Shown piece by piece: positions 19,635-38,100 of a stretch of 38,988 nt of DNA. Location: contig JAGRJP010000080.1 in NCBI GenBank assembly GCA_020442665.1, forward strand, positions 1 to 38,988, given 5' to 3'. The translations under genes and the position numbers were made by a program. This DNA comes from Lysobacterales bacterium. Its GTDB lineage: Bacteria > Pseudomonadota > Gammaproteobacteria > Xanthomonadales > Marinicellaceae. Within the stretch, counting starts at the first letter, position 1. Every line of letters begins with the position of its first letter. A model generated the notes under the pieces. That model worked only from the letters and a program-made list of their open reading frames with translations, ran no database searches and was not told where the DNA came from.

Positions 19635-20189
19635 ATGAACGAATTATCGAAAACAGCAATCATTCTTGAACGAATAGTTAAGGGTGACAAAGACGCTACC
19701 AATGATTTGGTTAAGCATTGTTACCCTTTACTTTTAAAATGGGCTCATGGAAGAGTTCCATATACCGAAAAAAGTTTACTGGATACCACCGATTTGGTTC
19801 AGGAAACGATTCTAAGAGGAATTCAAAGAATAGAGTCTTTTCAATCTCTTCGTGCCGGCGCATTTTTAGCCTATTTGCGAAGAATCTTTATCAATTGTAT
19901 TAATGAATCTGTCAGAAAGCCCAATAAGTCTGATGATATTGATGACTTTCTAAATCGTCGAACCAATTTTTCGACAGAACTCAATGTTGATGAATATATT
20001 TTTTACGAAAAAGCATTGGAAAAGTTGAGCGAAGTTGAGCAGGAAGCCGTTATTCTTCGAGTTGAATTTGGCTTTACTTATGCCGAGATTGCAAAAGAAA
20101 TGGAAAAGCCAACCGAAGACTCTGCTAGAATGTATGTCAATCGAGCTTTGGTTAAGTTGGCAAAATTTATTAAACAGCATGAACGATAA
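19635..20189 (+). CDS. ECF-type RNA polymerase sigma factor
   Basis: A 184-residue sigma factor with only regions 2 and 4. Region 2 covers about 20-90 (LLDTTDLVQETILRGIQRIESF, where the -10 helix lies) and region 4 covers about 125-180 (LSEVEQEAVILRVEFGFTYAEIAKEM, a helix-turn-helix for the -35). The ATG at 19635 is chosen over an upstream TTG because region 1.2-like homology begins there. Its stop codon lies 11 bases inside the kinase gene, so the two are translated together. ECF factors of this style are often paired with Ser/Thr kinases that switch them on, and no anti-sigma factor is seen here. The promoters it reads are unknown. Confidence 0.88.
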   Translation: MNELSKTAIILERIVKGDKDATNDLVKHCYPLLLKWAHGRVPYTEKSLLDTTDLVQETILRGIQRIESFQSLRAGAFLAYLRRIFINCINESVRKPNKSDDIDDFLNRRTNFSTELNVDEYIFYEKALEKLSEVEQEAVILRVEFGFTYAEIAKEMEKPTEDSARMYVNRALVKLAKFIKQHER

Positions 20190-22629
20190 AAGTGACAAAC
20201 ATAAGGAGTTTCTAAAGATTGCTGAGAGTATTTCGGCGGATCGAAATGAAGACAGTCAATTTCAGAGTGTTAAAAATAACGAATTGGCAAGCGCTTTTGA
20301 AATTATCAGCAAAGTAAAATCTTCTTTTCAGCGTTCCAATGCCAATTTTGATGAAGTTGTCACTATTGAAACAGGAGAAACCTGGGGACACCTTAGAGTT
20401 GAGGAGAAAATTGGCTCGGGTGGAATGGGGCTGGTTTATCAAGCCTACGATAATATTCTTGACAGACAAGTCGCTGTTAAATTTTTAAACCCAAAATCCA
20501 GCCAATACATCAGTTCAAATAACTTTATTAAAGAAGCCAGAAGACTAGCAAAAGTCAGACATCCTAATGTTCTGGCGGTTTATGGTGCAAACACTTTTCA
20601 AAATGTGACCGGCTTTTGGAGCGAACTTTTAAGTGGTCAAACACTTGAGGATTTGGTTAAGAAAAACCTCAATCAACAACAAATTTTAGATATCGCAAAA
20701 GATTTAGCATCTGCTGTCAAAGAAGTTCATGACAATAATATTATTCATGGTGATATTAAACCACAGAATATTATGCTGAGCGAAGAGGGAAGAGTTGTGT
20801 TGATGGATTTTGGCTCGGGTTCCGACCTTAATTTTGAAGATTTTAATATTTCCAGTTCCACGCCAATTATTATGGCTCCCGAACTATTTCGAGGACATCC
20901 CAAAACTAAAGCGAGTGATATTTATGCTTTGGGTGTTGTTTATTATTTTCTTTCAACAAAAGGTGAGTATCCCTATAAATCACATTCATTGGAAGAGCTT
21001 AGAAAGCAAATATTGTTACGAAAACCTATTGATTATAAGAATTTATCCGGCAGAAAAAAGTGGAAGCAATTGATTAAAAATATGCTTTGCTATAATCCGG
21101 AGGATAGCCCGACAATTGATGAAGTCATTGATGATATTGAGTTTATAGACAATATTCCCAAAAAGAAAAAAAAACGCTTCACGATTATTTCTATTTTAAG
21201 TTTATTAATTTGTGTGATTGTGGTTCTCATTTACAGTAATTTGAAACTGGATAAAGCCAATAAATCCACCCGACAGGCATTAAGTGAAACATCAGAAATC
21301 AATGATTTAATGTTTAATATGCTGTCTTCGGTTTCACCCGGTGTTAAGGGTAAAGATGTATTAATGGTCGATGTTTTAGATGACTTAATTTCAGAGACCA
21401 AATCGAATGAAAAAATTTCAAATGGTACAAAAGCTAAAACACTTTATACACTGGCTTATTCATTGAAAAATTTGAAATATATCGACAAAGGTTCTGCTTT
21501 GTTAGATGAGATATTAACTTATCCTGAATTAAATGATTTACTTCGGGTTCAGATACTCTATGGCAAAGCAATATTTGTTATGCGGAAAAATATTGACAAG
21601 GAGTCAAATATAAAAGCCAGAGAGTATTTATCTCAGGCTTCTGAAATCTATTCTTCGAAAAAAATCTCGGAACCCTCTGTTTTTGCTCGTTTGGAGTATT
21701 CATGGGCATTATTGTTGGACAGAGAGAATGATAATGAAGCGGCGATACATCATTTGGAAAACTCATTAAAATATTGGAACTCTCAATTACCATCATTGAA
21801 TGTGAATCGTGAAAAAGGGCTCATTTATATGCTGCTTGGTAATTTATATTCCGCTAAAAGCCAGTTTGATGATTCAATGGAATATTACAGTTTAGCGGAA
21901 CAAAACTTCGAATCATTTGCTCAAAAAACAAACAACAATTTATTGGCAGTTAAAAATAATATGGCCCAGACTCTGGCTCAAACCGGTGATACCCAACAAG
22001 CTCTTAAAATATATCAGGAACTTGTCAGAATCGGTGAAGAATATCTGGGTCAATCACATCCCGATTTCATTGTGTTTAAGTTAAATCTGGCGAATGCTTA
22101 CTATGAGAATAACAAACCCAATGACTCAATAAAAGAATTGGACGAAGTTATGCAAGTGACCATCGATTATTTCGGAAAGGAATCTGTTGCTTATCTTTAC
22201 AGTCAATCTGTTTATGCTTCTTCATTGAAGTTGCTGAAACAATTTAGTGAAGCTGAGAGAATATTTCAGAAGATTATTCAGATATCCAAAAAAATACTTG
22301 GTCAGTCCAATCCACAAACGCTCACACATCAGTACAATCTGATTGAACTTTATGTTGACTCTGAAAATCCCCATAAAGCATTGAAACTAATTGAAGAAAT
22401 CAGAGATATAGCTTATGAAAATCTGAATCCTGATAATTTAATTATTCTTGAATTGGAAGAAGCAAAAGCATGGTCGGATTTTTTGATTGGGAATTATCAA
22501 ATTGCAGAGACTGAAATGGTTGATGTAATTTCTCACAAAACTAAAGTTTTTGGAAAAGATAGTGAAAAGTTAACTCTGCCAAATGAACGCTTAAAACAAA
22601 TCAGAAAGCGAATTAAATCCGGAAATTAA
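20179..22629 (+). CDS. membrane Ser/Thr protein kinase with TPR sensor domain
   Basis: An 816-residue Hanks-type kinase. The glycine loop GSGGMG is at 79-84, the ATP Lys at 101 (AVKFL), the catalytic loop HGDIKPQN at 190-197, DFG at 210-212 and APE at 233-235. The usual HRD reads HGD, so it lacks the Arg that ties the activation loop in RD kinases. One membrane helix lies at about 334-354, preceded by a Lys-rich stop. The remaining 460 residues are helical TPR repeats (the TPR_12-like LAVKNNMAQTLAQTGDTQQAL is one), presumably periplasmic. The ATG at 20179 lies inside the sigma gene. The likely role is sensing a signal and controlling the co-encoded sigma factor. Confidence 0.88.
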   Translation: MNDKSDKHKEFLKIAESISADRNEDSQFQSVKNNELASAFEIISKVKSSFQRSNANFDEVVTIETGETWGHLRVEEKIGSGGMGLVYQAYDNILDRQVAVKFLNPKSSQYISSNNFIKEARRLAKVRHPNVLAVYGANTFQNVTGFWSELLSGQTLEDLVKKNLNQQQILDIAKDLASAVKEVHDNNIIHGDIKPQNIMLSEEGRVVLMDFGSGSDLNFEDFNISSSTPIIMAPELFRGHPKTKASDIYALGVVYYFLSTKGEYPYKSHSLEELRKQILLRKPIDYKNLSGRKKWKQLIKNMLCYNPEDSPTIDEVIDDIEFIDNIPKKKKKRFTIISILSLLICVIVVLIYSNLKLDKANKSTRQALSETSEINDLMFNMLSSVSPGVKGKDVLMVDVLDDLISETKSNEKISNGTKAKTLYTLAYSLKNLKYIDKGSALLDEILTYPELNDLLRVQILYGKAIFVMRKNIDKESNIKAREYLSQASEIYSSKKISEPSVFARLEYSWALLLDRENDNEAAIHHLENSLKYWNSQLPSLNVNREKGLIYMLLGNLYSAKSQFDDSMEYYSLAEQNFESFAQKTNNNLLAVKNNMAQTLAQTGDTQQALKIYQELVRIGEEYLGQSHPDFIVFKLNLANAYYENNKPNDSIKELDEVMQVTIDYFGKESVAYLYSQSVYASSLKLLKQFSEAERIFQKIIQISKKILGQSNPQTLTHQYNLIELYVDSENPHKALKLIEEIRDIAYENLNPDNLIILELEEAKAWSDFLIGNYQIAETEMVDVISHKTKVFGKDSEKLTLPNERLKQIRKRIKSGN

Positions 22630-22686: not shown

Positions 22687-22743
22687 ATGAAAAACAATAT
22701 TTTACAATACTTATCTACATTTATATTCCGCAAAAATATTTAG
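22687..22743 (+). CDS. 18-residue open frame with a strong ribosome binding site
   Basis: CGGGGGGAAG lies just before an ATG that opens MKNNILQYLSTFIFRKNI and then stops. The first residues resemble the start of the signal peptide of the 35147 protein (MKNNKIQNFL). It may be a true small protein, a leader peptide, or the stub of a lost exported gene. Its 3' end overlaps the end of the convergent Arg-rich gene by four bases. Confidence 0.3.
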   Translation: MKNNILQYLSTFIFRKNI

Positions 22744-23021
22744 TCACGATTATTACTTCGATTCCAACTGAGATTGGGTTTGCGCCGGTCTTTTATTTGC
22801 CTGCGAGGCAATTTATCCGGCTCCCAGCGAATGCTCATTCTTCTGTCTTCCGCATTAACTCTTCTATCAACCCCTGAACGTCTTTCTCTTATGGGGTTGC
22901 CATTATCGTCTGTTACCAGTTTTCCATTGATGTCAAAAACAAATGCAAGTTTATTGTTATTGGAAGAATCATCAATGGCTTGATGCTTTTGGTAACGATT
23001 TTTAATTATTTTTCTAAACAA
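22740..23021 (-). CDS. small Arg-rich protein with repeated (D/E)RR motifs
   Basis: A 93-residue basic protein. Residues 46-80 carry ERRSGVDRR, EDRR, LPRR and KDRR; residues 24-43 hold a hydrophobic strand and a DINGKLVTDDNGNPI turn. The start is a TTG at 23021, chosen because AGGAG lies seven bases before it and no ATG fits. I know ERR/DRR repeats from uncharacterised proteobacterial proteins only, and no function is assigned. It has TGTTCG 55 bases before its start, like the exported-protein genes to the right. Confidence 0.6.
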   Translation of the reverse strand: MFRKIIKNRYQKHQAIDDSSNNNKLAFVFDINGKLVTDDNGNPIRERRSGVDRRVNAEDRRMSIRWEPDKLPRRQIKDRRKPNLSWNRSNNRD

Positions 23022-23043: not shown

Positions 23044-23076
23044 GATTAAAAGTGTAGAGAGTCACAAAAGCGAACA
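23044..23076 (-). promoter_or_regulatory. TGTTCG-N17-ACTTTTAATC promoter-like element
   Basis: Read leftward, TGTTCG starts at 23076, 55 bases before the TTG of the Arg-rich gene, and ACTTTTAATC follows after 17 bases. The flank AAATGTTCGCTT is identical to that of the element at 23320. Confidence 0.4.
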
Positions 23077-23081
23077 TTTAT

Positions 23082-23261
23082 TTAGCAACCTATACAAATA
23101 ATGTTCGCAATTTCGACAACGATTTCATCAAACTGCTGGTTCTTTCCAATGAGCAGACGAGAGTCAATTTTCGTTATAATACAAGGTATTACATGCCCAT
23201 CTTTCAGGAATAAATGAACGGTTTTTTGATTTTCCATACAATAGATTAGTTTTTTATACAT
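23082..23261 (-). CDS. possible Sm/Hfq-like small protein
   Basis: A 59-residue protein (from the ATG at 23261). Its strand pattern TVHLFLKDGHVIPCIITKID...EIVVEIANIICI follows the Sm1/Sm2 layout of Hfq (a strand, then a polar-Gly turn, then a strongly bent strand, and a final ISTV-like strand). The YKH motif of Hfq is absent. Two more starts exist upstream in frame (23321 and 23486). I prefer 23261 because CGGGAAAA precedes it and the shared TGTTCG element then lies 59 bases upstream, as in the neighbouring genes. With the 23321 start it would have 79 residues and an N-terminal basic helix as Hfq does. The fold is inferred from the pattern. Confidence 0.45.
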   Translation of the reverse strand: MYKKLIYCMENQKTVHLFLKDGHVIPCIITKIDSRLLIGKNQQFDEIVVEIANIICIGC

Positions 23262-23287
23262 ATATCGGTTTTCCCGTAATAATTTTT

Positions 23288-23320
23288 CATAGAAATGATT
23301 TTTTCTTTTAGAAGCGAACA
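23288..23320 (-). promoter_or_regulatory. TGTTCG-N17-CATTTCTATG promoter-like element
   Basis: Read leftward, TGTTCG starts at 23320 and CATTTCTATG follows after 17 bases. It lies 59 bases before the chosen start of the Sm-like gene and is back to back with the element of the first FG-GAP gene. Confidence 0.4.
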
Positions 23321-23336
23321 TTTTTTTGAAAAAAGA

Positions 23337-23369
23337 TGTTCGGATTGTTCGTGGTTTTGACTTTCTAAA
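23337..23369 (+). promoter_or_regulatory. TGTTCG-N17-ACTTTCTAAA promoter-like element
   Basis: TGTTCG begins 58 bases before the ATG of the first FG-GAP gene. ACTTTCTAAA follows after exactly 17 bases. Six other genes nearby have TGTTCG or TGTTCA at a like distance. A second TGTTCG starts at 23346, so the exact register is uncertain. Confidence 0.45.
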
Positions 23370-23394
23370 AATAATTACACTTTGGGAAGTTATT

Positions 23395-25944
23395 ATGAAA
23401 ACATTGAAATCAAACAAAAAGAATTCATTTTTTATCATTATTTTTACGTTGCTAATGAGTTTGCAAGGATTTGCCGGTGAAAGCAAAGAAGAGGATCAAT
23501 TACAGTCCTTAAAGGCTGCACTTATGGAGCAAAAACTAATTGTCAGAGATGGTTTTGTAACCGAATTTGGTACAGCAGTCAGTATGGATCCGATATTAAA
23601 TCGAGCGGTTGTTGGTGCCAGAAGCTCCAGAGATGGAGGTAGCCTTTCGGGGGTGGCCTACATTTTTGAGCAAGATAATGGCAATTGGACTCAAACAGCT
23701 AAACTGATTTCATACGACAGCCAATACGGTCAATATTATGGTAACTCTGTTTCCATCGATGGTGATTGGGTCGTGGTTGGTGCACCAACTATTTCATCAC
23801 AAACAAAAGGATTTGCCGATATTTTTCACTATAACGGAACACAATGGCAGTTTCACAGCCGTTTGTTTTCCAATGATGTTACCAATGGCAATGACTTTGG
23901 GCGTTCGGTAAGCATTGTTGGCAATAGCTTGCTTGTCTCAGATCCCTTGGGTTTGGATGATTCCAATCCGCAAGTGAGTACAGGTTCAGTCTCTGAATTT
24001 CAATATGATAGCAATACAGACTCATGGCTTCTTGTGACCAAGATATTTGCTGCTGATAAACAGGAAGGAGATCATTTTGGTATTAACATCGACTTAGATT
24101 TTGGTGGCAATCGCGTGGTAATCGGTGCTTTTGAAACCGATGATAATGGCACAGGTTCGGGTTCAGTCTATGTATTTGATAAGTCAGGTTCTATCTGGCT
24201 TCAATCGGCAGAGTTATCAGGTTCAGAAACCGGAGCTGGAGATTCGTTTGGAGGTAAGGTGGCAATTTCCGGTGACATAATTGTTGCAACTACTTTTGAT
24301 CCGAGTGATTTTACGAACAACAAGGTTTATATTTTTGAGAATCTGGGAGGAACATGGCAGGAAACCGCACAGTTGTCCGATGCCAACAACGATGTGGACT
24401 TTGGTTCTGCCATTGATGTTGATAATGGCATCGTTGTTGTCAGTCGATATTATAACAGTCAATTGCAAATATCACCCGGTTACTTTTTTTATCAGAAGAA
24501 TGGATCACAGCAGTGGCAGCTAGAGCAGTCAATAGTGGATACTGCAAATAAAATAGGTTCAAACGCAATTGATATTCACGAAGATCGAATGTTCTCAGCA
24601 AGGCGAAGCTATCAGGCATACTATCATGAAAACATTCCGGATGTATTAAAAAGTGGTAGTTCAATTGAAGGTTCATTGTGTTCAATCAACCCTTGTACAT
24701 GGACATTGCAACAAACCTTTTATGATAATGATGTGACCAATGGAGATGGATTCGGTATTGCTATGGACATTTCCGGTAATTTTGCCATCGTTGGTGCTTA
24801 TCAGGATGATGACAGAGGAGTGGATGCTGGAGCAGCTTATATCTTTGAATATTCGGAACAGTTAGATAACTGGTATCAGGCTCGAAAACTCACAGCTTTG
24901 GATGGTGCTGATAATGATGCTTTTGGGCGTTCGGTGGCAATCGACGGTAATCGTGCCGTCGTTGGAGCTTTTGCTGATGATATTTATAACCCTGTGACAA
25001 TGACTGATAATGTCAATGCCGGGTCGGTTTATGTTTTTGATTATGACGGAACAAAATGGTTACAATCAGCTAAACTGACTGGTGATGGGTTTATAAACTC
25101 AGCCGGGGACTTATTTGGTTATGCAGTCGATGTTAAAGGCAATAGAATCATTGCCGGAGCTCATCTGGACAATGAAAATGGAAATGATGCCGGTTCTGTA
25201 TTTGTGTATGATTTTGATGGTAACAACTGGATTGAAACTCAGAAAATCATGCCGGCAGACAGTAATCCCGGTGATGAATTTGGATATTCTATCAGCATGG
25301 ATGGTAATCGAGTGTTAATCGGTGCTTATAAGAATGATGAAAGAGATACAAACACCGGAGCAGCATATCTCTATCAATACGATCCTATAATCGCTATGGG
25401 ATATTTACTGCAAGACAAACTCCTTCCAAACAATATTGTGGGTGATGCCGGTGAATATTTCGGAACGGCAGTCAGTCTAAAAGGCAATCATGCAATGATT
25501 GGAGCATTTTATGATGATACCCCAACAACAAATGATGATGCCGGGAGTGTTTATTATTTCAGAAAAAGTTCAACGACCAATGATTGGAATCAATCTCAAG
25601 TATTAACAGCAAGTGACCATGAGCCAAATGATCGTTTTGGCTATTCTGTGAGTCTTTTTGGCAATCAAGTACTAATTGGTTCGTGGCTGGATGATGACAA
25701 TGGAACTGATTCCGGTTCGGTCTATTTGTTTAATCAAAATCCAAAAACATTATACTGGACGGAATATGAGAAAATAGTTCCGGATGATGGTGGTTCTACC
25801 GATTATTTCGGAGTTTCAGTGGCATTAACGGATCAATGGACCATGGTTGGGGCCCATCGTTTTGATCAAATTAGTAATACAGATGATTCAGGGACAGTTT
25901 ATGTGTTTGTTGATGATGTGATTTTCAAAAACGGTTTTGAGTAG
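23395..25944 (+). CDS. exported FG-GAP protein: two seven-bladed propellers, C-terminal NGFE tag
   Basis: An 849-residue protein. Signal peptide about 1-27 (basic start, hydrophobic core, ending SLQGFAG). I count 14 FG-GAP-like repeats of the form GDxFGxSVxIxGNRxxVGA(F/Y); the seventh is worn. They fall into two sets of seven, joined by a hinge near residue 427 with a Cys pair (SLCSINPCTW). Acidic turns such as DDDNGTDSG could bind calcium, as in integrin alpha propellers. The protein ends VIFKNGFE, a tail shared with four neighbours. The ATG at 23395 starts the signal peptide; the frame is open 23 codons further upstream, over the promoter-like region. It is a paralogue of the 27501 protein. 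A surface or secreted binding role is inferred. Confidence 0.85.
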   Translation: MKTLKSNKKNSFFIIIFTLLMSLQGFAGESKEEDQLQSLKAALMEQKLIVRDGFVTEFGTAVSMDPILNRAVVGARSSRDGGSLSGVAYIFEQDNGNWTQTAKLISYDSQYGQYYGNSVSIDGDWVVVGAPTISSQTKGFADIFHYNGTQWQFHSRLFSNDVTNGNDFGRSVSIVGNSLLVSDPLGLDDSNPQVSTGSVSEFQYDSNTDSWLLVTKIFAADKQEGDHFGINIDLDFGGNRVVIGAFETDDNGTGSGSVYVFDKSGSIWLQSAELSGSETGAGDSFGGKVAISGDIIVATTFDPSDFTNNKVYIFENLGGTWQETAQLSDANNDVDFGSAIDVDNGIVVVSRYYNSQLQISPGYFFYQKNGSQQWQLEQSIVDTANKIGSNAIDIHEDRMFSARRSYQAYYHENIPDVLKSGSSIEGSLCSINPCTWTLQQTFYDNDVTNGDGFGIAMDISGNFAIVGAYQDDDRGVDAGAAYIFEYSEQLDNWYQARKLTALDGADNDAFGRSVAIDGNRAVVGAFADDIYNPVTMTDNVNAGSVYVFDYDGTKWLQSAKLTGDGFINSAGDLFGYAVDVKGNRIIAGAHLDNENGNDAGSVFVYDFDGNNWIETQKIMPADSNPGDEFGYSISMDGNRVLIGAYKNDERDTNTGAAYLYQYDPIIAMGYLLQDKLLPNNIVGDAGEYFGTAVSLKGNHAMIGAFYDDTPTTNDDAGSVYYFRKSSTTNDWNQSQVLTASDHEPNDRFGYSVSLFGNQVLIGSWLDDDNGTDSGSVYLFNQNPKTLYWTEYEKIVPDDGGSTDYFGVSVALTDQWTMVGAHRFDQISNTDDSGTVYVFVDDVIFKNGFE

Positions 25945-25963
25945 GAAGTAGGAAAAAGGAAAT

Positions 25964-26023
25964 AAAGATAGCAATCTTCACGATTGTTCATACCTAAATT
26001 TATGGTGAAGATTGTTTATCTTT
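25964..26023. terminator. long hairpin between the first FG-GAP gene and the CSLREA gene
   Basis: AAAGATA-CAATCTTCAC (25964-25981) pairs with GTGAAGATTG-TATCTTT (26005-26023) around a 23-base loop, followed by a short T run. It would act as a terminator after the FG-GAP gene 20 bases upstream. The loop holds TGTTCAT (25985-25991), the upstream element of the next gene. Confidence 0.45.
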
Positions 26024-26043
26024 TAGAAATGTTTCAACTTATT

Positions 26044-27432
26044 ATGAAATTGTTTATTGCGGTTTTGATATTTAACACATCATTCTCATTCGCTGTAATT
26101 TTTAATGTGACTACAACTGATGATTTACCTGATAATATGCCGGGAAATGGGATATGCTCGGTGAATAATTCTTCAGATTGCAGTCTCAGAGCCGCCATTA
26201 TTGAGGCGAATCTCAATGCGGGTATTGATATAATTAATATCCCCAATGGAGTCTATCAACTCACTTTTGTGGGCGCATTTGAAAACTCAGCAGTTAGTGG
26301 TGATTTGGATATTACGGACTCTGTTAATATCAATGGTAGTGATGAAAATTTAACCATTATTGATGGGATATTGGCAGATCGGGTTTTTCATTTACATGGA
26401 GGTCAAGGAGTTAATGCAAATACACTAAGTTTGTCAAACTTATCAATAATCAAAGGAAAACCACCACAACAAACCATTAATGATTTCAGTAAATTGGGAA
26501 GTGGTGTTTTTGTTGAATACGATCAATTGCTTGAACTCAATCATGTGACATTTAAAGAGAATGAAAATGGCTCCGTCATTCTTAACAAAGGAGGAGTCAA
26601 TGCTGATAATATTAGTTTTATTCAGAACCAATCTGATTCATCTTTGCCTTTTATAGCATCAGGAATCACAAACATTCATGAGTATTCCGAAACGACTAAT
26701 GTCAATGCTATTTTGAATATTCAAAACTGTGTATTTAAAAATAATTTTAGTGAAGGAGTCGCTATCATTGGCTCTCAAAACACCCGAACATTTCCTTTAC
26801 CGGTTTCTCATGTTGAAGTATTTATGGATAGATGTAGCTTTATTGGTAACCAAGGTCATAGCGTATCAGTTATTTACAATGACTCCAAGATTGATATGAA
26901 GATTTATAATTCAACATTCTCACAAAATATAAACTTAGGAGGTCAAAATTCATCAGGTATTTTATTTCTGAACGATGGAGGTTCTGAAATATTGATTGCG
27001 AATTCAACCCTTTATGATAATTCTGGGTCTGTATTACTTGATGTTCATGGTGGCTTTGGTTTTATCACCATTCAAAATAGTGTTATAGAATTGGATGATA
27101 ACCCAATATTCATCACTAGTTTTAATTCAAACGGAGGTAATTACATATCTCCAATTAATATGAATGACAGAATTAATATTCAGCCAACAGATTTATTAAG
27201 TGGTGATTTAAACCTTTCGCACTTAATCACAAGTGACACAAGGCATTACTCACTCAAACCACTTCCAGGTAGTATTCTTGTTGATTCAGCATTGAATCAG
27301 AATTGTACCCTTCATGATATCAATGGCACACTTCGCCCGTTAGATGGTGATAGTGATGGAATTCAGGTTTGTGACATTGGGGCTGTTGAGGTCAATCCAG
27401 ACTTGATTTTTCAATCCGGGTTCGAGATATAA
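26044..27432 (+). CDS. exported CSLREA-domain beta-helix protein with NGFE-like tag
   Basis: A 462-residue protein. Signal peptide about 1-17 (MKLFIAVLIFNTSFSFA). The CSLREA motif appears as CSLRAAIIEAN (46-56), preceded by TTTDDLPDN and GICSV, which fits the domain start. The rest shows short repeating turns (LSNLSIIKG, ITIQNSVIE, ILIANSTLYDN) of a right-handed parallel beta helix. The end is LIFQSGFEI, a variant of the tag with Ser for Asn and one extra Ile. The ATG at 26044 is chosen for its signal peptide; the frame is open 20 codons upstream through the hairpin, and no clear Shine-Dalgarno sequence marks either start. Confidence 0.8.
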   Translation: MKLFIAVLIFNTSFSFAVIFNVTTTDDLPDNMPGNGICSVNNSSDCSLRAAIIEANLNAGIDIINIPNGVYQLTFVGAFENSAVSGDLDITDSVNINGSDENLTIIDGILADRVFHLHGGQGVNANTLSLSNLSIIKGKPPQQTINDFSKLGSGVFVEYDQLLELNHVTFKENENGSVILNKGGVNADNISFIQNQSDSSLPFIASGITNIHEYSETTNVNAILNIQNCVFKNNFSEGVAIIGSQNTRTFPLPVSHVEVFMDRCSFIGNQGHSVSVIYNDSKIDMKIYNSTFSQNINLGGQNSSGILFLNDGGSEILIANSTLYDNSGSVLLDVHGGFGFITIQNSVIELDDNPIFITSFNSNGGNYISPINMNDRINIQPTDLLSGDLNLSHLITSDTRHYSLKPLPGSILVDSALNQNCTLHDINGTLRPLDGDSDGIQVCDIGAVEVNPDLIFQSGFEI

Positions 27433-27440
27433 AAAATAAT

Positions 27441-27473
27441 TGTTCGGTTTTTCGAAGTTTTTACCTTTTAAAT
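27441..27473 (+). promoter_or_regulatory. TGTTCG-N17-CCTTTTAAAT promoter-like element
   Basis: TGTTCGG begins 60 bases before the ATG of the second FG-GAP gene and only six bases after the stop of the CSLREA gene. CCTTTTAAAT follows after 17 bases. Confidence 0.45.
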
Positions 27474-27500
27474 ATTGTATGAACAAAAAAGGTATGAGCA

Positions 27501-29981
27501 ATGAAAAGCAAATTTTTATCTATAATTTATTTTTTTATATTTTTTCAACTCGGTTTTGCATACGGAAATCCAAAATTGGACTCTATGCTCAATGCAATAA
27601 AACCTGATAACATCGAAGCATCAAGCTGGAGTGATTTAAAATCGGCCATATTTGATTATAAGATTTTCGCAGATAATGTCTTTGGGCAACCGGCATCTAT
27701 TTCATTGGATGGAAACAATGGTCGAGCTGTTATTGGTGCCATCGGAGCACAGGATAATGGTTTTATCTCCGGAGCTGCCTATGTCTTTGAACTTAATAAT
27801 GGTCAATGGTCGCAAGTACAAAAATTAGTAGCAAGCGATGGTGTGAGTTATCAGTTTTTTGGCAAATCCGTTGCTATAGATGGAAATATGATTGCTGTAG
27901 GCTCAGGTGGCAGTTCTGCAATCGGAGCGGTCTATATTTTTCAATTGCAAGGAAGTCAGTGGATAGAAACAGATAAATTAAAACTTTCGTCTTCAACGAA
28001 TTTATTCTCAGAATCAATTGATTTAGCCAATAATCGACTGATTGTCGCAGATCGCAATGCAAAAAATAACACCAACCCACAAATTGTTACCGGTGCTGTT
28101 TATGTGTACACATACGACTCGAATAATAGCACCTGGAGCAATCCAATTAAAATTTTGGCAAATAACCCTATAGAGTTTTCCGGTTTCGGCAGTGATTTGG
28201 CTTTGGATTCGAGTGGTAATCGGTTTGTTGTGGGCGCGAACTCAGAAGACAATGAATTTGGTGCCGATGCTGGTGCGGTTTATGTTTATGATTTTAATGG
28301 AATCAGTTGGTCGCAGTCTCAACGCATCACCGCCAATGATGCGGCAGCTGGCGATGAGTTTGGAGATAATGTTGCTATTGATGGTGATATTATTTCTGTT
28401 TCAGGTGTTTTATCTAAAGCCTATATTTTTGAGTTGGCAATCAATAATTGGTTTCAATCATTTTTAGTGATTGATGGAAATCCCAATTCCGGTTTAGGAT
28501 TTGATTTAGATATGAGCAATGACAAAGTGGTTTTTGCAAGAACGAATCCTAAAAGTTTATTGGTTTATAAGAAAAATAGCACTATTTGGTCGCTTGAAGA
28601 AACTATATTTACTCCAAACTCACCACAATCTCTCATTGTATCATTGGAAGGAGATGAAATGTTGTTAGGAGAATACAATATTGCATCACAATATTACAAA
28701 TTTGAAACCGATATTAGCTGTAACTCTTCTCCTTGCTGGAATCATAATCAGGAATTTAATATCGAAGACAATACGGAGGAAGATGCATTTGGTGTGAGTT
28801 TGGATATTTCCGGTAATCGAGCGGTAGTTGGTGCTTTTCGAGATGATGATAAGGGAAACAACGCCGGCGCCGCCTATGTTTATGAGTATAAAAATATTGG
28901 CAATACCAGCGAGTGGACTTTAGTTAAAAAACTGCTTGCAACTAATGGAGCAACCGAAGATGAGTTTGGCCGTTCGGTAGCTATTGATGGGGATAGGATT
29001 GTTATCGGTGCTTTTAAAGATGATTATATCATTTTTAATGGTGGTATTCCTGTGCCGGTATCTAACGCCGGTTCCGTTTATGTTTTTGAATATGATGGTT
29101 TTAAATGGGTTGAAACTCAAAATATTCGCTCGGGTGAGGGTTTGCTTGCACAAAATGACTTATTCGGTTTTGCTGTAGATATTCACGGTGATCGAATAGC
29201 AATTGGCGCCTATAGTGATGATGAAAACGGTATCAACAGTGGAGCCGTTTATATTTATCAAGCTGTAAATAATAATTGGGAGTTGTCCGAAAAGATTATG
29301 CCCAATGATGGTGATCCGGATGACTCATTTGGCTATGCTATTAGTTTGGATTCTTCTCGTATATTGATTGGAGCTTATCAGGATGATGATATTGCCAACA
29401 ATGCCGGAGCAGCATATATTTATCAGTACAACCCTGTGTTTCAAGGTTGGAATTTTCAAGATAAATTACTACCCTTGACATTTGGTAATCCAGACGATTT
29501 TGTAGGTACTGCAGTCAGTTTACAAGGTGATAAAGCCATAGTTGGGGCGAATTGGGACAATGTTGGTCAACATTTGGACAATGGTCGTGTTTATTATTAT
29601 AAAAAAGATGAACTTCAGACTTCTTGGAGTCAAATTCAATCTATAGTCTCACAAAACAGTAGTGATGGTGACAGATTCGGGTACTCAGTAAGTATTCATG
29701 GCAAGAAATTGCTGGTGGGTGCTTGGCGCGAAGACCATGATACAAAAGTTGACAATGGAGCAGCCTACTTGTTGTCTCTCAATGAGACGACAGGTTTATG
29801 GGAGCATGAAGAATTACTTAGAGCCAATGATTTTGATACAGAGGATTATTTTGGCGTTTCGGTCAAATTAACCGATCAATGGATGATGATTGGTGCTCAT
29901 CAAGAGGACACTCCCAGTATCAATGCTGGCTCTGTTTATGTGTACAGAACTGATTTGATATTTGAAAATGGGTTTGAATAA
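27501..29981 (+). CDS. second exported FG-GAP double-propeller protein with NGFE tag
   Basis: An 826-residue paralogue of the 23395 protein with the same plan: signal peptide about 1-22, seven FG-GAP-like repeats, a Cys-pair hinge near residue 410 (ISCNSSPCWN), then seven more repeats, ending LIFENGFE. The second propeller is better conserved between the two paralogues than the first; whole phrases such as FGRSVAIDGDRIVIGAF and LTDQWMMIGAH recur almost unchanged. In the first propeller several blades have lost the FG dipeptide. It probably arose by duplication of the neighbouring gene, with the CSLREA gene now between them. Confidence 0.85.
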   Translation: MKSKFLSIIYFFIFFQLGFAYGNPKLDSMLNAIKPDNIEASSWSDLKSAIFDYKIFADNVFGQPASISLDGNNGRAVIGAIGAQDNGFISGAAYVFELNNGQWSQVQKLVASDGVSYQFFGKSVAIDGNMIAVGSGGSSAIGAVYIFQLQGSQWIETDKLKLSSSTNLFSESIDLANNRLIVADRNAKNNTNPQIVTGAVYVYTYDSNNSTWSNPIKILANNPIEFSGFGSDLALDSSGNRFVVGANSEDNEFGADAGAVYVYDFNGISWSQSQRITANDAAAGDEFGDNVAIDGDIISVSGVLSKAYIFELAINNWFQSFLVIDGNPNSGLGFDLDMSNDKVVFARTNPKSLLVYKKNSTIWSLEETIFTPNSPQSLIVSLEGDEMLLGEYNIASQYYKFETDISCNSSPCWNHNQEFNIEDNTEEDAFGVSLDISGNRAVVGAFRDDDKGNNAGAAYVYEYKNIGNTSEWTLVKKLLATNGATEDEFGRSVAIDGDRIVIGAFKDDYIIFNGGIPVPVSNAGSVYVFEYDGFKWVETQNIRSGEGLLAQNDLFGFAVDIHGDRIAIGAYSDDENGINSGAVYIYQAVNNNWELSEKIMPNDGDPDDSFGYAISLDSSRILIGAYQDDDIANNAGAAYIYQYNPVFQGWNFQDKLLPLTFGNPDDFVGTAVSLQGDKAIVGANWDNVGQHLDNGRVYYYKKDELQTSWSQIQSIVSQNSSDGDRFGYSVSIHGKKLLVGAWREDHDTKVDNGAAYLLSLNETTGLWEHEELLRANDFDTEDYFGVSVKLTDQWMMIGAHQEDTPSINAGSVYVYRTDLIFENGFE

Positions 29982-29984
29982 ATT

Positions 29985-30017
29985 TGTTCGGTTTATAATT
30001 AAAATTTCATTTATAAA
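29985..30017 (+). promoter_or_regulatory. TGTTCG-N17-CATTTATAAA promoter-like element
   Basis: TGTTCGG begins 58 bases before the ATG of the exported Sm-like gene and three bases after the previous stop codon. CATTTATAAA follows after 17 bases, leaving about 25 bases to the start codon, a normal distance for a promoter. Confidence 0.45.
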
Positions 30018-30042
30018 ATTATAAACAAAAATATACCAAATT

Positions 30043-30354
30043 ATGAATTGGCAAAAAAACTCTTTATTTATTGTCGTGATATTTATCAATTTTTTGTTTT
30101 CTGTACACAATTTGCAGGCAAAGATGACTGTCAATCATGAAAAGATAAGTGTTAATTATTCAATTTATAAAAATTTAACTTTACTTAAGGGTCAAATAAT
30201 TAGTGTTGAATTAAAGTCAGGTAAAGTTTATGAAGGTGTTGTAAAGTCTGTCAGTGATAAGTATCTGTATATTGAAAAAATAACAAACAAAGAATATTAT
30301 GATGGGCTTATAGCAATATCAGAAATTGAAGCAATTGTAGTCCGAGCCAGATAA
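30043..30354 (+). CDS. small exported protein with Sm-like / SH3-like barrel
   Basis: A 103-residue protein with a signal peptide about 1-26 (ending NLQA). Residues 50-101 read GQIISVELKSGKVYEGVVKSV, then a polar turn, then strands ending ISEIEAIVV; this is the strand-turn pattern of Sm/LSm domains. An exported Sm-like domain would not be expected to bind RNA, so a protein-binding barrel is likelier. It lacks the NGFE tag. It is 25 bases ahead of the HzsA-related gene, which has no upstream element of its own, so the pair is probably one operon and the products may work together. Confidence 0.6.
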   Translation: MNWQKNSLFIVVIFINFLFSVHNLQAKMTVNHEKISVNYSIYKNLTLLKGQIISVELKSGKVYEGVVKSVSDKYLYIEKITNKEYYDGLIAISEIEAIVVRAR

Positions 30355-30379
30355 TTGCCATAATGTTGAATTAAATAAT

Positions 30380-32731
30380 ATGATAAGATTCTATTTTATA
30401 TTTGCTTTTATTGTAGCATATTCAAATTCTGCTAGTTCGCAGATTTATCTTGAAAGATGTCTCAATTTACAACCACAAAACAATCTGCAAATTCCTGTAT
30501 CAGCAAATAACATATCAAATCCTTTGATATTTGTGACTCAACAGCCACTGGCGGCTGATTTTGGAGTGTCCACATCGACATTTGGAAATCATGCACCGAC
30601 AACTGCGGAAGCAGGAAGAGGTGGTGATTTATGGATTATGTATCCTCCTGATTATTCTCCCGAAATTCCTTCGGGATGTTTAAGAAATTTAACTGCTGAA
30701 GCCGGACAAGGTATAAATAATAATCCAAACCAATTTGGTCCTGATACAATTTCAATCCGTTCGCCATCGCTGAACTGGGATGCAACTTGTGTTTTATTTT
30801 CTATGGTAAAAGGCTCTCCTTCCGGATTGTTTGACTCAAGCAACAACAATGGTAAATGGCAATTGTATGAAATTTGCGGACTGGGATTGGCTGACAACCC
30901 GACTTTTATGAAGATTCCTCAACAAAATAGTAGCTATAATTATGTCGAAGGGATTTATGGGGTTGAATCCAATCAAATTATAGTCACAACAGATATTCCT
31001 CCCTCAGGCATGAATGCGACTCATCTTTTACCTTTAAGAGATGAATACGATCGGGCCGTTACAACAAGTGGAGTTTGGATGTTAGATCGGATTAGCGGAG
31101 AACACAAAATAATATTCAATTCTCCTTCGGGTGTTTTTGACCCAATGATTGATTCATTCGGTCGATTGTTATTTAGCAGTTGGGATCACTTAGAGCAGGA
31201 TTTATTTTTGGAACAAGGTTTTGCATTTGATTGGGATAGTGAGTCGGTAAATGCAACAATTCTGAATCAAACTTCAGAATTCTTTCCAGAACCCAGAGGT
31301 GGTGAACTGGATCAATTCATGACACCATATGGATTGATGTCAGAGTACAATATGAAATTGTTTTTTACTTGGCAGGTTGATGCTTTTACATTTAATAATG
31401 CTGAAACCATAAATCATATTGGAAGGCATGAATTATCGCGTTATCTTTGGGCAAATTTCCAGAATGATTCCGCTTTAACTCCTCTGAGCCATTTGCCTGA
31501 GATGTCGGCTCATATGCTAAGAACAAAGCAGAATCCAACCAATCTGAATGAGTATTATTTTATTGACGCTCCTCATTTTGGGTCGCAAGGAAGTGGTCGG
31601 ATATTTAAAATGTTAGCAGAGCCGGGTAGAAATGCCGATAATATGCCACTGCAACAAGTATCGGATTATTCAGGTCAATTTGTGATACCCGATGCTCAAA
31701 ATAATTGCGACCATCCTCAAAACGGCTACAAAGGAAAATTTAGACATGTTGTTCCCTTAAACAATGGACAAATCATCGTCTCACATTCACAATCTGGAGT
31801 GTATTTTTCCGGAGGTCAGTGTACCGATTATACGACAAATCAGGCAACAGCGAATGATTCTCCCAATTTAGTACCAAACTTTAATTTTCAGATAAAAACA
31901 CTCATCTCAGACGGTCAATTTATGAAAGCCGGTGATCCGGTCACTCCAATTATTTCAAAAGAAATCAATCATTGGGGAAATGGAGATGGAGTGCTTAATA
32001 GTAATTTGCAGCATGTTCCAATTAGTTTTTCAGGGGCAATGTGGCAATTATATCCGATTGAAGTTAAGCCGATGTCACCACCGACGGCTCAAGCTGATGC
32101 GTTAGAACTTCCTGAAACTCAGGTATTTCAGACAGCAATGGTTGATGTTATTGAATTTAAGAATTTTTTACAAAATTCAAATTTGGCTTTGATAGTCAGT
32201 AGAAATGTCACCACCAGAGATGAAAATGATAAACAACAACCTTACAATCTGTCAGTTCCCGGAGGTGTTTCTAGCGTGGTTAATCAGAATGATACTGTTT
32301 ACCAAGTGCCTTTTTTTCAGATATTTCAGGGAGATTTGGTGAGAGATCATGTTAACAAGCCCGGACGAGCTGTAAAACCGGTGCCATTGCATACCAATCA
32401 GAGCTATGCTCAACCTGTCAGTAATGTTCCGGATAATCAATATTCCAATTCCTATTTTAAGATTGCATCTGATGGTTCGATGGCTGCGATGGTTCCGGCA
32501 CAAAAGGCATTAACATGGCAGTTAACAGATGCCGATGGATTTGGAATTGTTAAAGAACGAGTTTGGGTGACGCTTCAACCCGGAGAAATCAGAGTTTGCA
32601 CATCATGTCATGGATTGAATGAAATGGATCAATTGGATCGAAGTCAACCTGAAAACCCACCTTTGGCACTACTTGAATTATTGGAATACTGGAAAAGTAA
32701 TGATTTGATTTTTCAAAATGGTTTTGAGTGA
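30380..32731 (+). CDS. exported HzsA-related c-type haem protein with NGFE tag
   Basis: A 783-residue protein. Signal peptide about 1-20. The last 70 residues before the tail carry PAQKALTWQLTDADG, VTLQPGEIRVCTSCHGLNE and a Pro-rich end, the pattern of proteins related to the hydrazine synthase alpha subunit. Cys740-Thr-Ser-Cys743-His744 is a CxxCH haem c site. The upstream part is rich in beta strands (SPSLNWDATCVLFSM, FDPMIDSFGRLLFSSW), suggesting a propeller. It ends LIFQNGFE. Anammox-type hydrazine synthesis is not implied: the other subunits are absent, and HzsA relatives occur widely. The haem needs periplasmic cytochrome c maturation. Confidence 0.75.
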   Translation: MIRFYFIFAFIVAYSNSASSQIYLERCLNLQPQNNLQIPVSANNISNPLIFVTQQPLAADFGVSTSTFGNHAPTTAEAGRGGDLWIMYPPDYSPEIPSGCLRNLTAEAGQGINNNPNQFGPDTISIRSPSLNWDATCVLFSMVKGSPSGLFDSSNNNGKWQLYEICGLGLADNPTFMKIPQQNSSYNYVEGIYGVESNQIIVTTDIPPSGMNATHLLPLRDEYDRAVTTSGVWMLDRISGEHKIIFNSPSGVFDPMIDSFGRLLFSSWDHLEQDLFLEQGFAFDWDSESVNATILNQTSEFFPEPRGGELDQFMTPYGLMSEYNMKLFFTWQVDAFTFNNAETINHIGRHELSRYLWANFQNDSALTPLSHLPEMSAHMLRTKQNPTNLNEYYFIDAPHFGSQGSGRIFKMLAEPGRNADNMPLQQVSDYSGQFVIPDAQNNCDHPQNGYKGKFRHVVPLNNGQIIVSHSQSGVYFSGGQCTDYTTNQATANDSPNLVPNFNFQIKTLISDGQFMKAGDPVTPIISKEINHWGNGDGVLNSNLQHVPISFSGAMWQLYPIEVKPMSPPTAQADALELPETQVFQTAMVDVIEFKNFLQNSNLALIVSRNVTTRDENDKQQPYNLSVPGGVSSVVNQNDTVYQVPFFQIFQGDLVRDHVNKPGRAVKPVPLHTNQSYAQPVSNVPDNQYSNSYFKIASDGSMAAMVPAQKALTWQLTDADGFGIVKERVWVTLQPGEIRVCTSCHGLNEMDQLDRSQPENPPLALLELLEYWKSNDLIFQNGFE

Positions 32732-32750
32732 TAAGTCGATACTATGAATT

Positions 32751-32786
32751 TGTTCACAGTAAATCCTAATAATCCAATTTATAATC
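32751..32786 (+). promoter_or_regulatory. TGTTCA-type upstream element of the pectate-lyase-like gene
   Basis: TGTTCAC begins 64 bases before the ATG. AATTTATAAT starts 19 bases after it, so the spacing is two bases longer than in the TGTTCG examples. The match is weaker than for the FG-GAP genes. Confidence 0.3.
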
Positions 32787-32814: not shown

Positions 32815-34242
32815 ATGAAAAATACTTTTGTGAGCATTTTATTGATAATTCCGGTTGTGATTACCACGAATGTTTTTGCTCAACTGAAATCTTTCCCAGA
32901 AGCTGAAGGTTTTGGAGCAAATGCAAGTGGCGGCAGGAATGGAGCGGTTTTGAAAGTGATTAATTTAAATGCTTCGGGAACCGGTTCATTGCAATGGGCA
33001 TTAAATCAATCCGGTGCCAGAATTATCGTTTTTGATGTTTCGGGAATAATTACCGGTGATGTACATATTCCTCATGGTGATGTCACTATCGCCGGACAAA
33101 CTGCACCTGGAGCAGGAATCACCATTGTTGGGCATCTTTATACCACTTATGGAAGTGATACAAATAATATTATTATCAGACATATTCGTGTCAGACCGCC
33201 TGATCCTGATGCTTCATGGCCTTCCAGTCAGCATGATGGAATCCAGTTTTCAACGGCAAACAATATTATTCTGGATCATGTGGATGTTTCGCACGGTGCT
33301 GATGAAAATATCGACTTCTGGGGTGGAGCAAACCATATAACGGTTCAGTGGTCGAATATATCCTATCCCATCTATGATGTTGCTAACGGATGGACACACA
33401 ATAAAGGCATTCTAAACCACAGACCTTGTCTGGATGATAACAGTTGTGATGGTTCTTCACTTCCGGGAGGTTTTATTTCCATTCATCATAATTATTTTGC
33501 TCATGCTCGTAATCGAACACCGGCTTTATCAGTTGGCCCCGCTGATGTGCGAAATAATGTGATTTACAATGGCAGAGAAGGATTTGTTCATCATAATATT
33601 GTTGCGAGCGATAAATTTAATATTATCGGTAACAAATATATCGCAGGTCCGAGTATTTCTCTGGCGCCATTTTGGTTTGATCCTGAAAATCCGGCTCCTC
33701 CAATATTAACTGAATACTGGATGGAGGATAATCTTGTTGAAGATCCGGGTGTATTTAATGGAGTTGTGAATAATCCATGGACCAATACATTATTTCAGAA
33801 TGAATACACATTTGCTTGTTGCGGAATTGTTTCCGGTCAGTTCAATCAATCGGGTGAATTTGATTTTACCTCTGATGGAAGTGTTTCAATTTTAACTCAT
33901 AGCAGTAATGAAATTGAAGATTTGTTGGCTCAGCAGGTTGGAGCTTTTCCAAGAGATATTGTATCCAGAACATCTATCAATGATTTACAAACCCGAAGCG
34001 GGCAGTGGGATAATTTTCGCCCAGCGGATTTGATGGATGGATTAACCGTTTTACCGCCACCACTGGACTCAGATAATGACGGAATGCCCGATAGTTGGGA
34101 AAATCAGAACGGTTTAAATCCAAACAACGGAAGTGACCACAATACAATTATGCCATCCGGTTACACAGCTATTGAAGAATATATCAATGGTCTTGCGACT
34201 GCGATGGTGACTGATTTGATATTTCAGAATGGTTTTGAATAA
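32815..34242 (+). CDS. exported pectate-lyase-like beta-helix protein with NGFE tag
   Basis: A 475-residue protein. Signal peptide about 1-22 (ending NVFA). It opens with FPEAEGFGANASGGRNGAVL and GTGSLQWAL, then IIVFDVSGIITGD and TIAGQTAPGAGI, which are hallmarks of family 1-type pectate lyase relatives, followed by HDGIQF, LDHVDVSHGADEN and a beta-helix core. Near the end DSDNDGMPDSWENQNGLNP is a calcium-binding type 3 repeat often attached to polysaccharide lyases. It ends LIFQNGFE. Action on pectin or another uronic acid polymer is inferred. It lies seven bases from the convergent phnA stop. Confidence 0.8.
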   Translation: MKNTFVSILLIIPVVITTNVFAQLKSFPEAEGFGANASGGRNGAVLKVINLNASGTGSLQWALNQSGARIIVFDVSGIITGDVHIPHGDVTIAGQTAPGAGITIVGHLYTTYGSDTNNIIIRHIRVRPPDPDASWPSSQHDGIQFSTANNIILDHVDVSHGADENIDFWGGANHITVQWSNISYPIYDVANGWTHNKGILNHRPCLDDNSCDGSSLPGGFISIHHNYFAHARNRTPALSVGPADVRNNVIYNGREGFVHHNIVASDKFNIIGNKYIAGPSISLAPFWFDPENPAPPILTEYWMEDNLVEDPGVFNGVVNNPWTNTLFQNEYTFACCGIVSGQFNQSGEFDFTSDGSVSILTHSSNEIEDLLAQQVGAFPRDIVSRTSINDLQTRSGQWDNFRPADLMDGLTVLPPPLDSDNDGMPDSWENQNGLNPNNGSDHNTIMPSGYTAIEEYINGLATAMVTDLIFQNGFE

Positions 34243-35146: not shown

Positions 35147-38100
35147 ATGAAAAACAATAAAATACAAAATTTTCTTAAAGTACTTGTTCTGATTTTTATT
35201 GCTAATAGTGCGTTAGCATTAGATTTGTCAGTATCAAATTTTCAAATTAATCCAGGAACAACAATTAATGCAAGCACAAGTTATTCGCTTCTGATTGATA
35301 TTGCGAATACTGATGATTTGTCGGGAGTAACAACATCCACAGGACAAAGAATAATTATAAATATGGATGGATCAACACCATCAAATATTTTAGACCAGTC
35401 TACATTAGACTCAGTTGTTGGTGGAGATTGGACCGACGAATCGACGATTCCCGGTGAAATTGTTGTCGAATCAGCATCAATTTTAAATGCTGCAGGTTCG
35501 AAATCTGTACAAATCAATTTAACTGCAGGAGCAGGTTCTCTTGGCCCAGAAGCAATAACTGTAAGGGTCGAAGATTTCGTCGAAACGGATACTAATGCAT
35601 TAAATGATTCGTCGGCAATAAACGTGACGATATTAGGCTCAGAGCCGGATTTGGATTTTAATGATTCGGCCACACTCGCAACTTATAATGCAGTAGAAAA
35701 TCAAGCAACTCCAGTGAGTATAGATTTTAAAGTTGACAATCTTGGGGGAGATGCAACTTCAGGAGTTGGTATAACAATTATTTATGATGACTTTAATCTA
35801 ATATTTGAACAAGGATCTAGTATTATTCCTACAGGTTGGTCGTGTACCCCATCAACTGGAATTCTGGATTGTTCGACATTTAATCCAGTATTATCAGGGT
35901 CAGCGACTAATTTCACGCTAGACTTTTCAGTGAGCTCAAATGGTACATTTAATCTAAATGCCACCCTATTGGATTTTGGTGGGACAGAAACCAATACTTC
36001 AAATAATACAATATCTACGAGTATTGATGTTGTTGCCGGAAATTATGACTTGGCACTGACACGATTAAACCCTGTATCAGTTCCATTGTCAATTCCGCTG
36101 GGAACTATTACTTCCACACCGTTAGTCTATGAAGTTCGAAATATTGGAAATGCCAGTTTCACTTCTGACGTGGAGATTTTTTTAGGTTTTGACCCAGCAT
36201 TTAGTGTCACCAATACAAGCGTTCTACCTGCTCAGGTTGCCGGAGTCTGGGATTGTGCTCCACAAACAGGAGGAACATTGTGTACTCTTCAAGATGATTC
36301 AATAAATCCCGGAGATGTACTAACCCTGACAGCTGATATATCGTCATACCCAGCAACAGCAGGTGTTTACGGTAATTCAATTAACGTCCAAGTTTCAGAT
36401 TTGTCTGGTAACGAAGTCAATTTGTCAGACAATATGGACGCATTTGATATTGAAATGACTGAATTATTAACTGATTTAAGATTAACTAAGTTTGTAAAAG
36501 ATTTAGGTGGAACACTGATTACTGACGTCGATGTCGGAGTTGATTTTGCTTATCATATCCATGTCGATAACTTGTCTTTAACATCAGCTACAAATGTAAT
36601 AGTTACTGATCCGCTTCCAGCCGGTGTAAAATTTGTTGGAGATATTTCGACAGGAAACTGGAGTTGTACTGCCGACCCATTTGTTGATCAGAATACATCG
36701 CAAGGTGTCCAGTGTATACATCCTTCAATTCCTGCAAGTTCGCCAAATTTTGCTGATGTGATTAAACTTCAGGTTGTTGGTCTGACGACAGGTTTAAAAG
36801 AAAACACCGCAGTTGCTGCAAGTGATGAGTTAGACTCTAACCCATTTGATAATGACAATATTGGCAATCCTGCAACAGTGAATATTAATCAGCCTGCGTC
36901 TGATCCTGATATTACTGTAATAAAAACAATTCAATCCGGTGTTTCAGGTGGTGCTGGTGCTTTTGTAGCAATGCAAGGAGATAAAGTTGTATATAAAATA
37001 CTTGGGAAAAACTTAAGCAGTGCTTCGCCTGCCGGGTCTAATGTTGTAATTACTGATGTTTTACCAGCTGGAGTGACATACTTTTCACATAGTGCTTTAG
37101 GTCCAAATTTTGTTTGTGATCCATTCGATTCAGTAAATAATAAGGTAACCTGTACAGCAGCGTCATTACCTTTTACAACGGCAGATGATGGTGTGGAAAT
37201 TACTGTTGAAGTCACCGGAAATGTTGGAACATTTGTTGTAAATACAGCAAATATAACGGCTGACGCAGATGCTGATCCTGGTAATAACTCTTCATCCAGT
37301 GATTCATTTGAGATAATAGCCATTCCAATGGGTGAAATATCAATTGATAAAACTGTTACAGGTGGAGTAGCGGCAGGAAGTGCGAGTGGTGCTACCAATG
37401 AATTTGCAGTTGGAGATACAGTTTTTTATCAAATTTCAGCTACAAATAATTCAGCTGCAATTGATTATAATGATCTACTTATTAAAGACACATTACCTGT
37501 GAATGTGGCTTTTGATAGCTTTTCTGCAACTATGGGATTTAACTGTAATTATGATACTAATAATCATGAAGTTTCGTGCCAGAACGACGCCAATAATACC
37601 CTAAGTCCAGGACAAACTGTTACTATTGATATCAATGCAATCGCATCAGTACCTGGTTTGGGAATCCAAAATATAGCTTCAGCTTCAAGTTTAACAAACG
37701 GTGATAATTTAAGTTCTGCGCCGGCTATTATTGATATTGTGAATCCAACTGTTAACCCAACTGTGCTAACAATTACGAAGCAAGCATTATTGGATAATGT
37801 GCCAATCGCACAAATATCAAGAGGTTCCAGTTTTGTTTATCGAATTGATGTAGTAAATGCAGGAACTGAAAACGCTCAAGGGCTTCATTTGAGCGATTTA
37901 ATGCCCGATTCTCTTACAGTCGATTCTTTAGCTACACAAGAGTGGAGTTGTTCAAACACAGCATTGCAGTATGACTGTTTATTTATAGGAGATTTGTCAC
38001 CTGGTACAGGTAGCACCATTGAGTTTTTTGTTACAAATGATGCAAACTCGACAAGTTTACAACTGATAAATGTTGCTACTGTTGTAGCGGAAAATGCGGT

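Follow-up and report, generated by a model that had tools for sequence, protein, structure and literature searches.

A two-part promoter-like element beside a kinase-linked sigma factor gene in Marinicellaceae

Seven genes, located on both strands of a contig of a Lysobacterales bacterium (Gammaproteobacteria, family Marinicellaceae; GenBank assembly GCA_020442665.1, contig JAGRJP010000080.1, positions 1 to 38,988), are preceded at similar distances by the hexamer TGTTCG or TGTTCA. The whole stretch of 38,988 nucleotides is referred to here as the window. Which protein reads this element, and what do the genes that it precedes have in common? A conserved second box follows TGTTCG at a fixed distance, and the element adjoins a gene for an extracytoplasmic function (ECF) sigma factor, both here and in related bacteria. 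From the comparison of sequences we consider it highly probable that the two boxes are the -35 and -10 regions of a promoter recognized by this ECF sigma factor, which is linked to a kinase (sigma gene at 19635-20189), and that exported proteins encoded nearby form its regulon.

The element and its specificity

TGTTCG-N17-(A/C)(A/C)TTT occurs at five sites in the window, 55-60 bases 5' of start codons. These sites and two TGTTCA hexamers, in which a second box in register is absent, are listed below.

23044..23076, minus strand: proposed promoter of the Arg-rich protein gene, TGTTCG-N17-ACTTTTAATC, 55 bases before the start
23288..23320, minus strand: proposed promoter of the small Sm-like protein gene, TGTTCG-N17-CATTTCTATG, 59 bases before the start
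23337..23369, plus strand: proposed promoter of FG-GAP gene 1, TGTTCG-N17-ACTTTCTAAA, 58 bases before the start
27441..27473, plus strand: proposed promoter of FG-GAP gene 2, TGTTCG-N17-CCTTTTAAAT, 60 bases before the start
29985..30017, plus strand: proposed promoter of the exported Sm-like protein gene, TGTTCG-N17-CATTTATAAA, 58 bases before the start
25985..25990, plus strand: doubtful site TGTTCA, 59 bases before the chosen start of the CSLREA-like gene
32751..32756, plus strand: doubtful site TGTTCA, 64 bases before the pectate-lyase-like gene

The original prediction described TGTTCG or TGTTCA before seven genes between 22740 and 34242, and all positions and distances were verified. The second box lies exactly 17 bases after TGTTCG at five of the seven sites. 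At the same register, the letters before the CSLREA-like (AAGATTGTTT) and pectate-lyase-like (CCAATTTATA) genes do not match, and these two of the seven TGTTCR sites are doubtful. Start codons were called mechanically, and those of the CSLREA-like (26044), small Sm-like (23261) and Arg-rich (TTG) genes are provisional choices. The proposed promoters of FG-GAP gene 1 and of the small Sm-like gene are arranged back to back. The one at 29985..30017 probably also serves the HzsA-related gene, which resides downstream of the exported Sm-like gene.

The position of the element is not matched by chance. Random sets of 8 genes each were drawn from the genome of the window, and the best common word was freely chosen in each set. 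The best common 5-mer at -50 to -66 of the cluster genes is TGTTC (7 of 8 genes), a result matched by none of 3000 random sets; the best two-part word, GTTCG-N19-TTT, is found in 5 of 8 genes and was matched in none of 1000. The genome-wide figures come from searches for defined patterns and from sampled stretches of the assembly. A search of the 2.86 Mb assembly for TGTTCG-N17-MMTTT gave 14 matches, and the reversed pattern, used as a control, gave 9. Five of the 14 are clustered in a 7 kb part of the window; with the rate of the control as reference, the Poisson P is about 4e-11. The other nine are all inside open reading frames (ORFs), and none has the placement upstream of a gene that is expected of a promoter. 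The only promoter-placed copies of the strict motif in the assembly are the five beside the sigma gene of the window. By itself, TGTTCR shows no enrichment in the window (39 observed, 56 expected). The second box had been proposed to read TTTnTA, which shows no excess genome-wide (8 sites, 7 in the control), and is therefore better described as (A/C)NTT(T).

The sigma-kinase pair and its relatives

The genes for the sigma factor and for a Ser/Thr kinase lie upstream of, and directly adjoin, the cluster of exported-protein genes.

19635..20189, plus strand: ECF sigma factor gene (184 aa; Pfam), with DTTD as its sigma2.2 motif; proposed to read the element
20179..22629, plus strand: Ser/Thr kinase gene (Pfam Pkinase 5e-44, TPR), overlapping the sigma stop codon; proposed activator

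The sigma protein matches Pfam Sigma70_r2 (residues 25-95), Sigma70_r4_2 (125-175) and Sigma70_ECF, all above cut-off. It features sigma2 and sigma4 domains only, and is thus an ECF (group 4) factor. The kinase has one hydrophobic segment (residues 334-352) and TPR repeats, and the adjacency of the two genes is that of kinase-linked ECF systems. A close second copy of the sigma factor was not found in its own genome, where the next match is 26% identical.

Relatives of the sigma factor were searched in 200 genomes of the order and in 33 of the family. Four orthologous loci were found, with sigma factors 49-61% identical to that of the window and a gene of kinase size directly behind the sigma gene. 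In all four, exported-protein genes are preceded by TGTTCG-N17-(A/C)NTT, with TGTTCG 53-63 bases before the start. The element lies at 59 before a leucine-rich repeat (LRR) protein gene and at 67 before an FG-GAP_2 protein gene (tail FFNGFE) in G154:C203. In G096:C10 it lies at 58 before an FG-GAP_2 protein gene; another copy, at 115, is directed towards the divergent gene. Three tandem paralogues in G154:C218, with N-termini like those of the CSLREA-type proteins of the window, have it at 53, 63 and 58, and one gene for a CSLREA-type-like protein in G120 at 58. A motif search of G154, G096 and G120 revealed one distal target, an exported CSLREA-like protein of G096 ending in IFEDGFD (element at 56); most of the other matches in these genomes fall within ORFs, and no gene start is in range of the few that are intergenic. 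In neighbourhoods of the TGTTC type the two-part element is found at -50 to -68 of 10 of 31 genes (4 in the window, 6 outside), against none of 522 others. The spacer measures 17 bases in 12 of 12 aligned TGTTCG sites, and upstream DNA beyond the boxes is dissimilar among genes and species. A scan of named genomes yielded a single relative, in Marinicella meishanensis (37% identity).

Sixteen further, paralogous loci, fifteen in the family and one in another, encode sigma factors 36-45% identical. Their neighbours ending in GFE carry the -35 variant TGTG(C/T)N-N17-C(A/G)T(T/C), as TGTGTT-N17-CATTTA in L076, and nearly all such sites keep the 17-base spacing. At these loci 9 of 21 GFE-tailed genes have the variant upstream, compared with 2 of the 164 other genes (P 2e-8). 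The TGTTC element was found before none of 185 genes at these sixteen loci, and the TGTG(C/T)N-type element before none of 52 genes at the four TGTTC loci. L109, L111 and L115, from other families of the order, have TGTG elements as well.

The -35 type tracks the sigma tree, in which the five sigma factors of the TGTTC type group together (clade support 99/97). The predicted sigma4 recognition helix reads D..N/K in TGTTC sigma factors, and N..S/T/A in the rest of the family. G154 holds both types of sigma factor and serves as an internal control: TGTTC and TGTG promoters each adjoin the matching sigma gene. The original prediction counted the sigma gene among those devoid of the motif. No motif is indeed found there, yet the comparison of orthologous and paralogous loci marks the sigma factor as the likely reader. 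What unites the target genes is their location beside the ECF sigma gene, and not the NGFE tail.

Other pairs of this kind occur elsewhere. Distant sigma genes of the window genome adjoin kinase matches at G000:C355 (14628 and 15422) and G000:C75 (4368 and 5138), and G000:C355 also has an NGFE-tailed gene ending at 22278. In several families of the order, ECF-kinase pairs have GFE-tailed exported genes as neighbours (L106, L107, L109, L113, L115-L117), which suggests that the link of this type of signalling to the GFE tail is general. GFE-like tails mark 48 of 495 genes around sigma-kinase pairs; for arbitrary stretches of the window genome the figure is 2 of 111 (P 0.004). In this comparison the pattern is loose, a single genome served as control, and both control matches are unconvincing as tails.

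Target genes, proposed mechanism and alternative explanations

The genes of the cluster are as follows.

22740..23021, minus strand: gene for a small Arg-rich protein (TTG start assumed)
23082..23261, minus strand: gene for a small Sm-like protein, 59 aa (nothing above cut-off in Pfam)
23395..25944, plus strand: gene for an exported FG-GAP_2 protein with NGFE tail (FG-GAP gene 1; Pfam FG-GAP_2 2e-142)
26044..27432, plus strand: gene for an exported CSLREA-like protein with SGFEI tail (NCBIfam CSLREA_Nterm slightly below cut-off)
27501..29981, plus strand: gene for an exported FG-GAP_2 protein with NGFE tail (FG-GAP gene 2; Pfam FG-GAP_2 7e-123)
30043..30354, plus strand: gene for an exported Sm-like protein (weak LSM / SM-ATX, below cut-off)
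30380..32731, plus strand: gene for an HzsA-related protein with NGFE tail (Pfam HZS_alpha 7e-11), 25 bases past the exported Sm-like gene
32815..34242, plus strand: gene for a pectate-lyase-like protein with NGFE tail (NCBIfam PelZ 1e-27, under its cut-off)

The exported HzsA-related protein has a CTSCH haem-binding-type motif close to its C-terminus. A long exported-protein gene located past the phnA-like gene (35147-38986) runs off the end of the window, and lacks the upstream TGTTCG element.

In the proposed mechanism, the membrane Ser/Thr kinase would sense a signal and probably phosphorylate the sigma factor, thereby activating it. The sigma4 domain would bind TGTTCG as the -35 box and sigma2 would bind (C/A)(A/G/C)TTT, 17 bases on, as the -10 box, and transcription would start at the element. 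Active sigma factor may in this way switch on the adjacent genes: the two FG-GAP genes, the exported Sm-like and HzsA-related genes, and those for the two small proteins. The regulon, made up chiefly of GFE-tailed, exported repeat proteins, is likely a surface or secreted response. More broadly, we lean towards viewing the ECF-kinase pairs of the family (Marinicella and relatives) and of the order as parallel insulated signalling units. In each, one membrane kinase would be wired to the GFE-tailed exported proteins encoded next to it by way of a -35 box that has evolved together with the sigma4 helix (TGTTCG, TGTGTT, TGTGCG), and the promoters would form a class of ECF promoters devoid of AAC.

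Three other explanations have been considered. The element may be bound by an ordinary regulatory protein, or it may combine an activator site with a vegetative -10 box, in either case controlling the same local genes. Divergent copies near 23071-23109 and 23315-23342 do make operator-like inverted repeats (CGAACAT...ATGTTCG), but FG-GAP gene 2, the Sm-like gene and most relatives are preceded by single sites, not by dyads. The second box, at exactly 17 bases and conserved in sequence, also speaks against a regulator, as does the correspondence of the -35 type with clade and sigma4 helix of the adjoining sigma factor; moreover, the gene lists of the orthologous loci show no other regulator gene in common. 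This explanation is held to be unlikely. Very unlikely is that the boxes are functionless by-products of local duplication, found in upstream DNA common by descent. FG-GAP genes 1 and 2 are paralogous, as are the three CSLREA-like genes in tandem in G154:C218. The boxes, however, are common to unrelated genes (Arg-rich, Sm-like, FG-GAP, LRR, CSLREA-like), are embedded in upstream DNA otherwise dissimilar between genes and species, and are kept beside sigma genes whose proteins share only about 50-60% identity.

According to the original prediction, the element could mark NGFE-tailed genes as a class. Most targets in the window carry a GFE tail, yet the proposed targets include genes without it, and the two-part matches elsewhere in the genome all fall within ORFs. 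The strict pattern NGFE-stop has 17 sites in the assembly, 3 of them in the window; nine of the 14 others belong to a complete ORF with 120 readable upstream bases, and none of these nine genes carries TGTTCR within that distance. The idea of a promoter common to NGFE-tailed genes across the whole genome is refuted by these figures, and we regard it as extremely unlikely.

Several observations weigh against a promoter read by the ECF sigma factor. The -10 boxes vary within the window (ACTTT, CCTTT, CATTT), and the AAC usual in the -35 box of studied ECF factors (PMC8103513) is missing from TGTTCG. All five loci of the TGTTC set come from one family, and two are nearly copies of each other. The sigma operon in the window lacks the element and sodB is only 32 bases away; autoregulation of this pair was rejected on these grounds. 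The helix rule is imperfect beyond the family, as L102 and L117 have a D..N helix and the TGTTC element was not found there, while in L115 (G019:C3) TGTTCG-N17-CGTT precedes a sigma gene devoid of this helix.

In L115 the sigma gene, whose helix is of the N..S/T/A type, has its called start at 6103, and the TGTTCG site stands about 91 bases ahead of it; the GFE-tailed neighbour has TGTGCA-N17-CGTT. In L121 (G018:C1, position 7976) a distant sigma factor of another family features a D..N helix, and TGTTCG-N17-CATT is found 52-58 bases before its own likely start; it is possible that this factor is autoregulated via the same -35 box. As a predictor of TGTTCG outside the family, the D..N helix gave mixed results (L121 positive, L102 and L117 negative, L115 an exception), and was set aside. 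The two-part promoter with unusual boxes, as originally proposed, is supported by position, fixed spacing, conservation across species and genome-wide specificity; the two TGTTCA sites are left in doubt.

Comparison with known systems

Signalling by ECF sigma factors switched by Ser/Thr kinases has been recognised recently, and few targets are known. For the system described here, comparison alone provides promoter and regulon, as well as a sister set whose -35 box differs, and thanks to this sister set specificity can be tested through two sigma4 residues. The data also open a regulatory approach to the GFE-tailed exported proteins of these bacteria, so far uncharacterised, and point to candidate pairs of sigma factor and promoter that are mutually insulated.

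Sigma factors switched by an adjoining kinase include EcfP, paired with PknT, and EcfK, paired with PknS (PMC8103513, PMC8999054, PMC13147305). In these ECF43 pairs, from Vibrio parahaemolyticus and Xanthomonas citri, respectively, the ECF sigma gene likewise adjoins a Ser/Thr kinase gene. PknS has a transmembrane segment and C-terminal TPRs (PMC13147305), as the kinase of the window. A Thr in the sigma2.2 motif and target genes located nearby are further features in common. In contrast, ECF43 factors have QTTA or STTA in sigma2.2, the uncharged consensus QTTA replacing DxxD (PMC13147305), whereas the window factor has DTTD, with both Asp residues kept. Most relatives have [DE]TxD; Thr is found at the second position in all those aligned, and the third position varies. 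Since DTTD does not match QTTA, the window sigma factor was not filed as ECF43. It scores 36.9 bits against NCBIfam TIGR02999 (cut-off 126), which may represent a group other than ECF43. Targets differ too, being the type VI secretion system or polymyxin resistance for ECF43, and GFE-tailed exported proteins in the window.

Groups ECF59, 61, 62, 217 and 283 are also linked to Ser/Thr kinases, and are reported to retain a charged motif resembling DAED, with Ser/Thr within it or close by (PMC8999054). They resemble the window factor in both respects, and their named representatives come from Planctomycetes and Nocardioides. By analogy, the window sigma factor may work like kinase-linked ECF groups in general.

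The two boxes and the fixed spacer near 17 are those of an ECF-type promoter; the AAC of the -35 box is not found. The Mycobacterium tuberculosis sigma-H promoter consists of GGAACA and GTT, with 17 bp as the best spacer (PMC6411747). A rigid spacing of about 17 bases is common to canonical ECF promoters, such as those of sigma-E and sigma-H (GGAAC, CGT/GTT), and to the element described here, and the -10 CGTT or CATT of relatives resembles the canonical CGT/GTT (PMC6411747, PMC8103513). The canonical -35 box has an AAC core, replaced here by TGTTCG, and by TGTG(C/T) in the sister clades.

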